From contig JAAYJV010000076.1 in assembly GCA_012522755.1 (NCBI GenBank), forward strand, positions 1-53,096: a stretch of DNA of 53,096 nt, in the 5' to 3' direction. The notes beneath the pieces were generated by a model. The model searched no databases, was not told the DNA's origin, and saw nothing but the letters and a program-made list of their open reading frames with translations. This DNA is from Candidatus Hydrogenedens sp. Lineage in GTDB: Bacteria > Hydrogenedentota > Hydrogenedentia > Hydrogenedentales > CAITNO01. A program made the position numbers and the translations under genes. This document shows, piece after piece, positions 30,556 through 34,901 of this stretch; within the stretch, counting starts at the first letter, position 1; each line of letters begins with the position of its first letter.

Positions 30556-32847
30556 TTATCGGGCTTCTTCAAAAGGCGCCTCCGGCAGAAGTGTCAGTCC
30601 CAGAGTCGTCAACTCTTCAGAGAGTGTGCCATTGAAGAATTGAAAGCGTTCCGGACCGCCTGCAATACAGGCCGCCGGCACATCACCCAGACTTCGGATT
30701 CCGGGAACAAAAAACTTCTCTTCCCAGAAACTGTCATCACTGATGTCCTGCTGATACAAGTCGACAAAAACTTTTTGAATGTCTCTGTCCACAGCAGCAG
30801 CGAAAAGTGACCAGAGTCCGCCTGCTTCCAATCCGACAAGGTCCAGGCTGTCTGTCGTATCAAAACGTGATCGGAGGAAAGAGGCGGCTGTCAGAATATC
30901 CTGTACACGGCAGGCCGTTGTGGTGGGCAGGAAGGGATCTGAAAATTTTCCTTTTTCAACGCGTTTCACAGCTTTTTCGGGGCCCTGATATTCGCCCAGG
31001 AGGAAAGCGTCCATGCTCAAGACCATTTTCCCTTCGGCCAGGAAACGGCGGATGAGCGGGCCCGGACCGCCTTCCCGGAGATCGGCCAGGGCGGCTTTTC
31101 CACGACCATGAACGAGAATAACACTGTCCTGAGGAGATGATTCCCGGCTCCGGTACAACAAAGCGGGGATGCGGTCGCCTTCTTCAACACGACCGATGAG
31201 CCAGCGCTCCAGCACATAGCTGTCCCGTTCTTCCATGGCGATACGGGTGGGCGCCAGTTCGTTTCTTCCGGGCTGCCGCGCAGTGAAGAGGGCCGAAAAA
31301 GCACTGTGATAACCATCGGCCGAGGCGGCGGGATCTTCAAGAGCTCCGGCAAGATGTTTCTTTCGACGCTCTTTCGCCAATTCCACAAGATGTGCGCGGA
31401 GAGCATCACCGGAGAGGTAGCCTTCGGGTGGATCTTCCCCGGGGAATACCCGGAGCCAGGCCTCATCGGGTATCTCAAAGGGAGGTTCTTCATAGTCCAG
31501 CCAGTCACCGCCCAGCAGATGTTCACCAAAGAAACGGTACATGGCTTCACGACTCTGCAGGTTATAGTTGTGAGGAAAGTCCAGATGCACATTGGCCACC
31601 CGCTCCTGCGCATCATAAAGGGCATAGATACTTTTGATGGCGGGATATTCCACCCGGGGCGTTTCCCGTGTCCAGTCGCCCGTCGTCGAAATAAGGAGCA
31701 GAGGACGGGGCGCCGCCAGTGCTCCGATTTCCATATTGGAGTTGGTCAGGCGCAGCAAAGGCGCATTTTCACACAAACATCCGCCCTGCATGGTACTGGA
31801 GATCATGTTGACCGGTGCGGAAAGGCAGATGCGCGGCTCCAGTGCTGTGAGCGTAAAGGTCTGTGTCCCTCCGCCGGAAGCACCCGTACAGGCAATCCGT
31901 TGGGGATCCACATCAGGGAGGGACTCCATCAGATCCACAGCACGCAGGCCCGTCCACAGCTGCATGGCAAAAGGATGAACACCCCAGAGCTTTTCCTGAT
32001 CATTGCCCCAGCGGTGAGGCAGTTGCTTGCTGTCCACATAGCCGATCATATCGTAAGAGAAAGTCAGGATACCCATCCGCGCCAGAGTGATGCAACGTCC
32101 GGGCACAGAGCCCAGTTCGGTGTTTTCCAGGCGACCCTTTGTCCAGTGCCCGTGAGGACTGACCACAGCCGGAAAGGGTCCTTCACCCGGTGGGCGATAG
32201 AGATTTCCCGTAGCGAGAAAACCGGGAAGAGGCTCAAAGTGGACTTTGGATACAGTAAAGCCATCGCCTTCAAATTCATCAAAGATACGGGCCTTCATCT
32301 CTGTTTTTTCAGGGATCGGAAAAAGGCCGCTTCCCAGACGCAAGCGCATGCGAATCTCTTCAGCGGCATCCTCCCAGGCTGATACAGAGTCAAAGGAAGG
32401 CATGATGAAAACCGTATCCGTGTGACGCTCTTCTGTCAACCGCCGGTCCGTGCTTCCCTGATTCATGGGAAGAACACGTGTATCCGAAAATGTCCGGACC
32501 GGAGAAAAGTCCGGGATCCGGGAAAGGAGCAGCGCAAAAATACCTTCATTCCAATCCACCTGCACCACAGTGTTTTTGAGACTGATCTTCCCGGCATCAT
32601 GCCAGAAGGCTTCTTCTTTTTTGGCATCCCGGCCGGCCCGGGGAACACTGTATTCCTGACCGTCCAAGGTGATGGAACCACCGATGCGCTGATCCGCAGC
32701 CAGCCAGAGCTGGTAATTCCCGACCTGAGACAGCTCCACTGATGATGCCTGTTCCCAGGCTTCAAGCAGATGCAATCCATCGTCCGGAGAGAGGGCTGTA
32801 AATATTTGAGACAATGAGGCACAGACCAGTACAAGGGAAAGGGACAT
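30556..32847 (-). CDS. Secreted tandem alpha/beta hydrolase (esterase-like)
   Basis: A 763-residue exported protein. Start ATG at 32847 has GAGGAG 8 bases ahead and gives a signal peptide (MSLSLVLVCASLSQIFTA); the frame is open further up without a site. The first hydrolase domain (about residues 170-440) has VSPHGHW (oxyanion region), nucleophile Ser in CTGASGGGTQTF, acid in LLISTTGDW, and His in DFPHNYN, similar to acetyl-xylan esterase/prolyl oligopeptidase-like enzymes. A second hydrolase-like region (about 580-740) has VILVHGRGKAA but GLEAGG where the nucleophile Ser would be, so it looks inactive. Natural substrate unknown; esterified polysaccharide is a reasonable guess. It stands alone, divergent from the EIIA-MgtE gene by 158 bases. 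Confidence 0.82.
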   Translation of the reverse strand: MSLSLVLVCASLSQIFTALSPDDGLHLLEAWEQASSVELSQVGNYQLWLAADQRIGGSITLDGQEYSVPRAGRDAKKEEAFWHDAGKISLKNTVVQVDWNEGIFALLLSRIPDFSPVRTFSDTRVLPMNQGSTDRRLTEERHTDTVFIMPSFDSVSAWEDAAEEIRMRLRLGSGLFPIPEKTEMKARIFDEFEGDGFTVSKVHFEPLPGFLATGNLYRPPGEGPFPAVVSPHGHWTKGRLENTELGSVPGRCITLARMGILTFSYDMIGYVDSKQLPHRWGNDQEKLWGVHPFAMQLWTGLRAVDLMESLPDVDPQRIACTGASGGGTQTFTLTALEPRICLSAPVNMISSTMQGGCLCENAPLLRLTNSNMEIGALAAPRPLLLISTTGDWTRETPRVEYPAIKSIYALYDAQERVANVHLDFPHNYNLQSREAMYRFFGEHLLGGDWLDYEEPPFEIPDEAWLRVFPGEDPPEGYLSGDALRAHLVELAKERRKKHLAGALEDPAASADGYHSAFSALFTARQPGRNELAPTRIAMEERDSYVLERWLIGRVEEGDRIPALLYRSRESSPQDSVILVHGRGKAALADLREGGPGPLIRRFLAEGKMVLSMDAFLLGEYQGPEKAVKRVEKGKFSDPFLPTTTACRVQDILTAASFLRSRFDTTDSLDLVGLEAGGLWSLFAAAVDRDIQKVFVDLYQQDISDDSFWEEKFFVPGIRSLGDVPAACIAGGPERFQFFNGTLSEELTTLGLTLLPEAPFEEAR

Positions 32848-33005
32848 GATATTGACTCCTCTTGGTTGATTACCGCATTGTACCGCAAGAAAGCGTAAAG
32901 AGAAAAGATTCATCCGCAACTGACAGCATGCCCTCTCTTCTGTTAAGATATACGAGCAGAATGCCAGCATGCCATCGCAGGATCAAAAAAGAAAGAGACG
33001 CTCCC

Positions 33006-34901
33006 ATGCCGACCAGTGTTCAGACAGCCGCACCAGCCTCCAGCCTGATCCAAAGGGCCATCGAAGAAGGACGTGTGATTGAGTTGCCCCTCTGCAACAA
33101 AGAGGAGGCCCTTCGCATACTCGCCGAAACCCTGGAACATATCCGGGGAGACGATCCTTCTTCCACCCAGATCATCGACAGTATCCTCCATTATGAAGCC
33201 CAGTCAACGGCTTATCTGGGTTATGGCATCGCCTGTCCTCATGCCCGGGGCGGTACTGAGGGAGAAATGATCTGCACCATAGGCTGGAGTCCTGATGGTA
33301 TTGAATACGGGAACACCGACGGCTGGCCCGTTCACCTGTTGATCATGTATTACGTGCCCTATTCCGCACGGAACCAATACCTGACGGAACTCTCCTCGCT
33401 GGCCCGTGCCATTGCCAATGACGAGGACCATCACGAGCTGGTCAATCTGGAAGATCTGGATGAGGTGAAGGAACGGCTGGATACCTGGATTGCCGCCATG
33501 GAAGGCCGTGCTGAAGGGGAAGAGGGCCGAAAATCCACCTCCCGTGTCGCTTCCTCCGTGCTGAGCCAGGTTCTGATTCCCGATATACTGGAGATGCTGG
33601 AAGACCGGCGCCTCCGCGACTTGCGTATCTTTCTTTCCGCACAGCCTGCACCTGAAATCGCCGAGCTTATTACAGCTCTGGACGCCTCGGATCAGTTGCT
33701 CGTCTTCCGGCTGCTCCCGAGAAGCCTGGCCGATGAAGTCTTCTCGCTCATCGACTATCCTTCCCAGACCCTGCTCCTGAAAAACATGGCCCAGGACGAG
33801 ACCCGGCAGATTCTGGCCGCCTTGTCTTCAGACGATCAGACGGCTCTTTTCGAAGAGCTTCCGGCCAATGTGACCCAGCGACTGCTGGCATTGCTCAGTG
33901 ATGCGGACCGCAAGCAGGTGCTCAGCCAGCTGAGTTATCCCAAAGACAGCGTGGGCCGTCTCATGACAAGCTGTTATGTTTCCGCTCATGAAAACTGGAC
34001 CATTGCCAAAACGATGGAACATATCCGTACAGCAGGCAGTGATTCAGAAACAGTCATGACGATTTATATCATTGACGATGACGGCGTACTCGTGGGTGAA
34101 CTGCGCCTGCGACAACTGATTCTCGCAGATCCGGCACTGCGTGTTTCAGTACTCATGGGCAAGAACTATGTGGCCCTCCACTCCATCCAGGACCGGGAAG
34201 AGGCCGTTCTGATTTTTAAAAAATACGATATGCACGCCCTGCCCGTGGTCGATTCCGAGGGGGTACTGCTGGGTATTGTCACCAATGATGACATCCTGGA
34301 CGTGGCCGAAGAAGAGGCTACGGAAGACTTCCACAAGGCCGGCGCCATCAGGCCCCTCTCCGTGGGATATCTGAGAACTCCCCTGTACATGCTTTATCGC
34401 AGTCGGGTACCCTGGCTGATCGCTCTCGTTTTCGTGAATATCTTTTCCGGGGCGGGCATCGCCCATTTTGAAGAGCTGATCAGTGTGTATATGGCTCTGG
34501 TCTTTTTTCTGCCTCTGCTCATTGACAGCGGCGGGAATGCAGGCGCACAATCGGCCACACTGGTTATCCGAAGCATGGCTGTCGGTGAACTGTCGCTCAA
34601 AGACTTCGCCCGTGTGTTCTGGCGTGAGGCACTGGTCTCTTCAGCTCTGGGGCTTTCCATGGCTGTGGCCGTGTTCGCTGTGGCCTGGTGGCGTTCGGGC
34701 TGGCTCATCGCTGTCGTGGCTTCTCTCGCCATGATCTCCATTGTCATGTTGAGCAGCATGCTGGGAATGATTCTGCCCTTCGTATTGCGACGCTTCAAGG
34801 TGGATCCGGCTGTTGCAAGCGGGCCACTGGTCACTTCATTGGCCGACATTCTGGGAGTGGTCATTTACCTGAGTATCGCCTCGCTCATTCTCTCTGTCTG
34901 A
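33006..34901 (+). CDS. PTS EIIA domain fused to an MgtE magnesium transporter
   Basis: A 631-residue fusion. Residues about 14-165 resemble PTS EIIA type 2 (PtsN/fructose): NKEEALRILAETL, then GYGIACPHARGG with the phosphorylatable His at about 79, and DGWPVHLLIMYYVP. Residues about 195-310 form the MgtE N domain (helical repeats such as LFEELPANVTQRLLALL), 310-430 the tandem CBS domains (PVVDSEGVLLGIVTNDDIL), and 465-631 five transmembrane helices with the MgtE signature LLIDSGGNAGAQSATLVIR and DPAVASGPLVTSLADILG. MgtE is a Mg2+ channel gated by Mg2+ binding to the N and CBS domains. An EIIA domain could make gating respond to PTS phosphorylation. Start ATG 33006 has a weak GAGA site; the frame extends 48 codons further up without better support. 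Confidence 0.88.
   Translation: MPTSVQTAAPASSLIQRAIEEGRVIELPLCNKEEALRILAETLEHIRGDDPSSTQIIDSILHYEAQSTAYLGYGIACPHARGGTEGEMICTIGWSPDGIEYGNTDGWPVHLLIMYYVPYSARNQYLTELSSLARAIANDEDHHELVNLEDLDEVKERLDTWIAAMEGRAEGEEGRKSTSRVASSVLSQVLIPDILEMLEDRRLRDLRIFLSAQPAPEIAELITALDASDQLLVFRLLPRSLADEVFSLIDYPSQTLLLKNMAQDETRQILAALSSDDQTALFEELPANVTQRLLALLSDADRKQVLSQLSYPKDSVGRLMTSCYVSAHENWTIAKTMEHIRTAGSDSETVMTIYIIDDDGVLVGELRLRQLILADPALRVSVLMGKNYVALHSIQDREEAVLIFKKYDMHALPVVDSEGVLLGIVTNDDILDVAEEEATEDFHKAGAIRPLSVGYLRTPLYMLYRSRVPWLIALVFVNIFSGAGIAHFEELISVYMALVFFLPLLIDSGGNAGAQSATLVIRSMAVGELSLKDFARVFWREALVSSALGLSMAVAVFAVAWWRSGWLIAVVASLAMISIVMLSSMLGMILPFVLRRFKVDPAVASGPLVTSLADILGVVIYLSIASLILSV

Follow-up and report, generated by a model that had tools for sequence, protein, structure and literature searches.

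The window examined here, the whole 53,096-nucleotide stretch of contig JAAYJV010000076.1 from Candidatus Hydrogenedens sp., contains one intact 631-aa ORF that was translated without meeting an internal stop (Table 1). An earlier note, made from the letters alone, described its product as an EIIA type 2 domain placed ahead of complete MgtE N, CBS and membrane domains. This order was borne out by Pfam, where all matches lay above the curated cut-offs: PTS_EIIA_2 (PF00359) at residues 30–158 (65.6 bits, cut-off 27, E 6.3e-18), MgtE_N at 216–314 (3.1e-21), two CBS domains (3.8e-14) and MgtE at 502–624 (5.1e-35); the region first assigned to EIIA, residues 14–165, does give a significant match. 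The channel part matched the NCBIfam profile TIGR00400 mgtE over its full length (404.5 bits across residues 193–630; cut-off 232.75), and its closest solved structure was Thermus MgtE (2yvx, E 2.7e-84). The EIIA part matched PtsN structures when compared with the structure database, and scored below the cut-off of the PtsN/EIIANtr equivalog TIGR01419 (34.9 vs 138.7 bits). A longer ORF starting at 32862 was rejected, being without support in the sister species; the two species share the start at the 33006 ATG. The divergent neighbour at 30556–32970 (−), an 804-aa alpha/beta hydrolase-like protein with weak matches to glucuronyl esterase and acetyl xylan esterase, also adjoins the fusion in the sister species. 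Rfam gave no matches in the window, hence no riboswitch was seen there.

Table 1. Features of the EIIA–MgtE fusion gene; positions are those of the window.
Feature	Position	Strand	Basis
Whole EIIA–MgtE fusion ORF, ATG start	33006..34901	+	Stop at 34899–34901; G001 orthologue has the same start and end residues
EIIA type 2 domain, residues 14–165	33045..33500	+	Pfam match at 30–158; fold elements in model; stand-alone relatives match IIANtr structures
Tyr63, at the active-site Arg position of other EIIAs (IIANtr Arg57, IIAMtl Arg49)	33192..33194	+	Alignment
His79, predicted phospho-acceptor (IIANtr His73, IIAMtl His65)	33240..33242	+	Alignment
Flexible linker, residues 166–190	33501..33575	+	Low model confidence, relaxed selection
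MgtE N domain, residues 191–314	33576..33947	+	Pfam, model
CBS pair and connecting helix, residues 315–445	33948..34340	+	Acidic Mg2+-sensor residues retained; most ATP-pocket residues of TtMgtE differ
MgtE membrane domain, residues 446–631	34341..34898	+	Pfam, model
Asp614, equivalent of Thermus MgtE pore residue Asp432	34845..34847	+	Mapping onto Thermus MgtE

The channel part was mapped onto Thermus thermophilus MgtE (Tt), a TIGR00400 protein with the same N, CBS and membrane domains. The pore Asp is kept, as are the residues that we take, from the Thermus structures, to be the Mg2+-sensor positions (Tt Glu59, Asp91, Asp214, Glu216, Asp226, Asp247, Asp250, Glu255, Glu258 and Asp259); all 13 acidic positions examined are kept in the window protein save Tt Asp95, which falls in a gap. 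By profile and by residues the product is thus an MgtE Mg2+ channel, with transport as its predicted activity. Thermus MgtE differs in being without an EIIA domain and in having the ATP-pocket residues Tyr170, Asp188, Asn203 and Phe227 (PMC5529423), all of which are replaced in the fusions and in their unfused relatives; the pocket is not needed for membership of the MgtE family. The idea that EIIA had replaced ATP as the energy input was dropped, since the unfused Kiritimatiellae MgtEs, the nearest relatives of the fusions, have lost the ATP-contact residues too, and loss of the pocket is therefore no mark of the fusion. A model of the fusion as a monomer (MgtE being a dimer) had a local confidence of 84.6 and a pTM of 0.47; the linker fell below 50 pLDDT, and because of this disorder and the low pTM the model does not fix the position of the EIIA domain.

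We examined how widely the fusion is distributed. The sister species, Candidatus Hydrogenedentes ADurb.Bin170 (G001), carries a syntenic orthologue of the same 631 aa that is 90% identical, which excludes an assembly chimera. These two genomes were the only ones with the fusion among the 68 of the window's order. A scan of named genomes outside the order added a Kiritimatiellae bin (L042) and a Lentisphaerae bin (L043), and with 346 genomes scanned for the class Kiritimatiellae the complete fusions placed in that class came to five (L042, L043, G227, G122 and G238); one further fusion, G235, is partial and ends at a contig edge. The survey of this architecture in related genomes that the earlier note had proposed accordingly returned seven complete fusions, two from Hydrogenedentota and five from Kiritimatiellae, with EI and HPr encoded where checked.

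Quick trees, built without bootstrap, were used to place the two parts. For the MgtE part, the eight fusions grouped in one clade (SH-aLRT 99) that branched within the unfused MgtEs of Kiritimatiellae and contained the window's genus, a topology that points to one fusion event followed by horizontal transfer into the window's genus. In the EIIA tree the fusion domains were likewise one clade, lying among EIIAs linked to MgtA, with weak rooting and long branches. Comparison of the window with G001 gave a dN/dS of about 0.04 for the EIIA part and 0.21 for the linker, at a dS near saturation; judged from these ratios, purifying selection acts on the EIIA part.

The His of the GIACPHARGG motif is residue 79 and aligns with the phosphorylated positions listed in Table 1. 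The position is His in each of the seven complete fusions, so that the conservation of this residue, named in the earlier note as phosphorylatable, was upheld; it is also His in 75 of 77 stand-alone members of the subfamily described below, the other two (L113 and L115) having Asp. The Arg of IIANtr position 57, which is usual in PTS EIIA type 2 domains and is not established as required, occurs in 5/7 fusions and 73/77 stand-alone members; the window protein and its sister have Tyr63 instead. Opposite IIANtr His120, the whole subfamily has Tyr or Phe, and Tyr also fills this position in both other EIIAs of the window's genome. Phosphorylation of the subfamily is likely on this pattern of residues. 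For the window protein, phosphorylation at His79 is plausible and less certain because Tyr63 stands in place of the helper Arg, and some members may be phosphorylated poorly or not at all, given this Tyr in the window's genus and the Asp in two stand-alone proteins.

The closest relatives of the EIIA domain within the same family (G005, G008 and G010; 35–38% identical) are separate genes, each immediately behind a gene for a Mg2+-translocating P-type ATPase (TIGR01524, 1068 and 1041 bits, the third ending at a contig edge with 574 bits). A scan by EIIA motifs yielded 80 loci of this subfamily. In 76 of them (for example L034, whose MgtA-type gene scored 1068 bits with TIGR01524) the EIIA had a gene of its own, which came next after an MgtA-type gene on the same strand; in three it was fused to MgtE, and in one it started at a contig edge. 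Median spacing from mgtA to the EIIA gene was 2 bp, and the distance was at most 60 bp in 74/76. All 79 loci with an intact neighbourhood, the window protein included, combine the signature G[KY]G[WI]ACPH and WSP[TD]GI[DE]Y with an adjacent or fused Mg2+ transporter, whereas in a control set of 20 loci for generic EIIAs, also from the window's order, neither MgtA nor MgtE lay within the 3–8.5 kb examined. On these gene neighbourhoods, the 76 MgtA-linked and three fused loci as against none in the control, the subfamily is specialised for Mg2+ transporters, which here belong to two unrelated families, the MgtA pump and the MgtE channel. Its records bear about 15 phylum labels (as deposited for the metagenome-assembled genomes), from Verrucomicrobiota and Spirochaetota to Acidobacteriota and Thermodesulfobacteriota. 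Such co-location shows a functional tie and gives no direction of effect.

The stand-alone proteins behind mgtA (for example L101 and L115) resemble the fusion domain in belonging to the same subfamily, with about 35–47% identity and the WACPHAR/GWSPxGI signature. They differ in being separate proteins of 257–290 aa whose partner is a P-type ATPase, and in carrying, at the C-terminus, a further domain of some 100 aa with no counterpart in the fusion. A model of one such relative (pLDDT 85.6) comprised the EIIA domain and a beta-rich C-terminal domain; its best solved matches were IIANtr (1a6j, E 4e-8), and weaker matches were the EIIA-like cytosolic domains of SLC4 exchangers (5jho). The C-terminal domain (L101:4169–4486 and others) has no Pfam match and was predicted with a pLDDT of about 92; it may be the part that contacts MgtA. 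Rfam placed an M-box Mg2+ riboswitch upstream of the mgtA–EIIA operon in L113 and L115 only. These sister loci (L113:3333–4112 and L115:5983–6762, one labelled Geobacter) are precisely the pair in which the EIIA His has become Asp and the Arg has become Lys, as if transcriptional Mg2+ sensing accompanied loss of the phospho-switch; they are only two cases, and related ones.

That the window holds no EI or HPr gene, as the earlier note had stated, is true; the phosphodonor, which it had called unknown, now has a candidate chain, since an HPr gene (94 aa) followed directly by an EI gene (583 aa) lies elsewhere in the same genome (G000:C11). EI and HPr were found in 17/17 genomes checked, all of them fusion, MgtA-linked or close-relative genomes, and HPr kinase in 7/7, including the window's genome. 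A search for one class of sugar permease, PTS_EIIC (PF02378), found none in seven genomes, again with the window's included, and for this reason the PTS of these genomes looks regulatory. In four fusion genomes tested the fusion was the only MgtE and no MgtA scored above cut-off, which puts the putative switch on the sole transporter of the MgtE/MgtA class found there. The window's genome also encodes another EIIA (L001:1432–2289, 285 aa), whose C-terminal extension ends in a CxxC...CxxC motif resembling a zinc ribbon.

The proposal of Mg2+ flux being tuned by a PTS chain gains support that is strong but indirect: almost all genomes with this EIIA subfamily tie it to Mg2+ transporters, of two unrelated families in all, and genes for HPr, EI and HPr kinase are present. 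Starting from features read directly in the genomes (the fusion, its conserved His, the Mg2+-transporter association and the genes for EI, HPr and HPr kinase), we consider it most likely that HPr~P would phosphorylate the EIIA domain and thereby bias channel gating. Phosphate would travel from PEP through EI and HPr to His79. Without phosphate, the EIIA domain, which the linker would keep close to the cytosolic N/CBS gate, would dock there and favour the closed channel; phosphorylation, when PEP is high, would weaken the contact between EIIA and gate, so that Mg2+ influx would track the energy supply. Control of this kind would be added to the ordinary closure of the channel by high cytosolic Mg2+. 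As to sign, we lean modestly towards the unphosphorylated form being the inhibitory one, solely by analogy with PtsN, which binds and inhibits the K+/H+ antiporter YcgO when unphosphorylated (PMC11808508). We put at about 0.6 the probability of the whole reading, in which the product is an MgtE Mg2+ channel that carries its own PTS regulatory domain, its EIIA belongs to the Mg2+-transporter subfamily and phosphorylation sets the gate.

It could instead be that in the window's genus the EIIA domain regulates the channel as a binding or structural module without phosphotransfer: efficient phosphorylation would have been lost, and the domain would clamp the N domain either permanently or in response to a ligand. 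Both species of the genus have Tyr63 for the active-site Arg, the His to Asp change in L113 and L115 shows that the phospho-site can be lost within the subfamily, and the same fold serves as the cytosolic domain of SLC4 exchangers, which the structure search also returned. Such a clamp is, however, unlikely in our judgment, as near-invariance of His79 and the CPHAR motif among fused and stand-alone members alike is hard to explain if the His has no role, and EI and HPr always co-occur with the domain.

Signalling might also run in reverse, the MgtE conformational change reporting cytosolic Mg2+ and altering EIIA phosphorylation and hence the HPr~P pool available to other EIIAs. EI needs Mg2+, and this dependence would fit such a scheme, as would the other EIIAs and the HPr kinase of the genome, which imply that a shared HPr pool exists. 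One copy of the domain per channel subunit would nevertheless be a poor sink for an abundant phosphocarrier, and the same subfamily accompanies an unrelated pump, for which control of transport is the better fit; we regard reverse signalling as quite improbable. To a functionless fusion, arisen by chance or as an artefact of annotation or assembly, we give next to no credence: its rarity in the window's order might be taken that way, but seven complete fusions in separate assemblies rule out an assembly or frame artefact, the fusions form one clade in the EIIA and MgtE trees, the EIIA part appears to be under purifying selection, and the orthologues had already refuted the idea.

PTS control of MgtE was compared with known systems. 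In LacS, the lactose/galactose transporter of streptococci and lactobacilli, a fused EIIAGlc-like domain is phosphorylated by HPr, and this is the one accepted case of a bacterial transporter controlled by direct phosphorylation (PMC10710835). The fusion shares with LacS a PTS EIIA-like domain attached covalently to a transporter and HPr as the expected donor; it is not of LacS type, since LacS has a glucose-type EIIA and moves sugar, whereas here an N-terminal type 2 EIIA is joined to a Mg2+ channel. E. coli PtsN (EIIANtr), acting on TrkA, YcgO and KdpD, is a type 2 EIIA whose phosphorylation state controls cation transporters through a cytosolic domain (PMC11808508, PMC13104625), as is proposed for the fusion; PtsN, however, is a free protein with several targets, concerned with K+, and the fusion domain is tied to Mg2+ transport and scores far below the PtsN cut-off. 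Several genomes of the same order (L185–L189) encode Na+/H+ exchangers fused to EIIA2, again a type 2 EIIA on a cation transporter, and EIIA domains on such transporters would seem to be a wider theme there; in these the EIIA is C-terminal and only distantly similar, and the transporter is a monovalent-cation exchanger.

A literature search pairing EIIA, PtsN or PTS with MgtE, MgtA or magnesium, with most subscription papers outside its reach, found no EIIA tied to Mg2+ transport, and a 2026 review of PTSNtr does not mention magnesium (PMC13104625). From the genomes compared, the fusion is real and conserved, and represents a putative EIIA-controlled transporter with an unusually clear association with Mg2+ transport across its family. 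If PTS control of MgtE is correct, it would be a second example after LacS of transporter control by direct phosphorylation, this time of a metal channel, and the scope of PTS regulation would widen from K+, for which it is known, to Mg2+. Among divalent cations Mg2+ is the most abundant in cells, and it is ATP's partner; the results suggest that bacteria with a Mg2+-linked EIIA tune magnesium uptake to their metabolic energy state. The broader proposal, that an unrecognised PTS branch controls Mg2+ uptake in many phyla, with one EIIA subfamily as a dedicated phospho-switch (partnered with MgtA or fused to MgtE) that couples import to PEP-driven phosphorylation of HPr, seems to us somewhat better than an even bet.

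Some other loci bear on the surroundings of these genes. An unfused MgtE at L078:7437–8819, 38% identical to the channel part of the fusion and also missing the ATP-pocket residues, is convergent to an mgtA–EIIA operon about 700 bp away, an arrangement that could be a picture of the pre-fusion state. Four Kiritimatiellae loci (L172, L180, L183 and L184) have tandem MgtE pairs without EIIA, 50–59% identical to the channel part, and these may form heterodimers. Riboswitches for c-di-AMP lie at L104:252–387 and L057:12198–12363, a few kb from the mgtA–EIIA operon.
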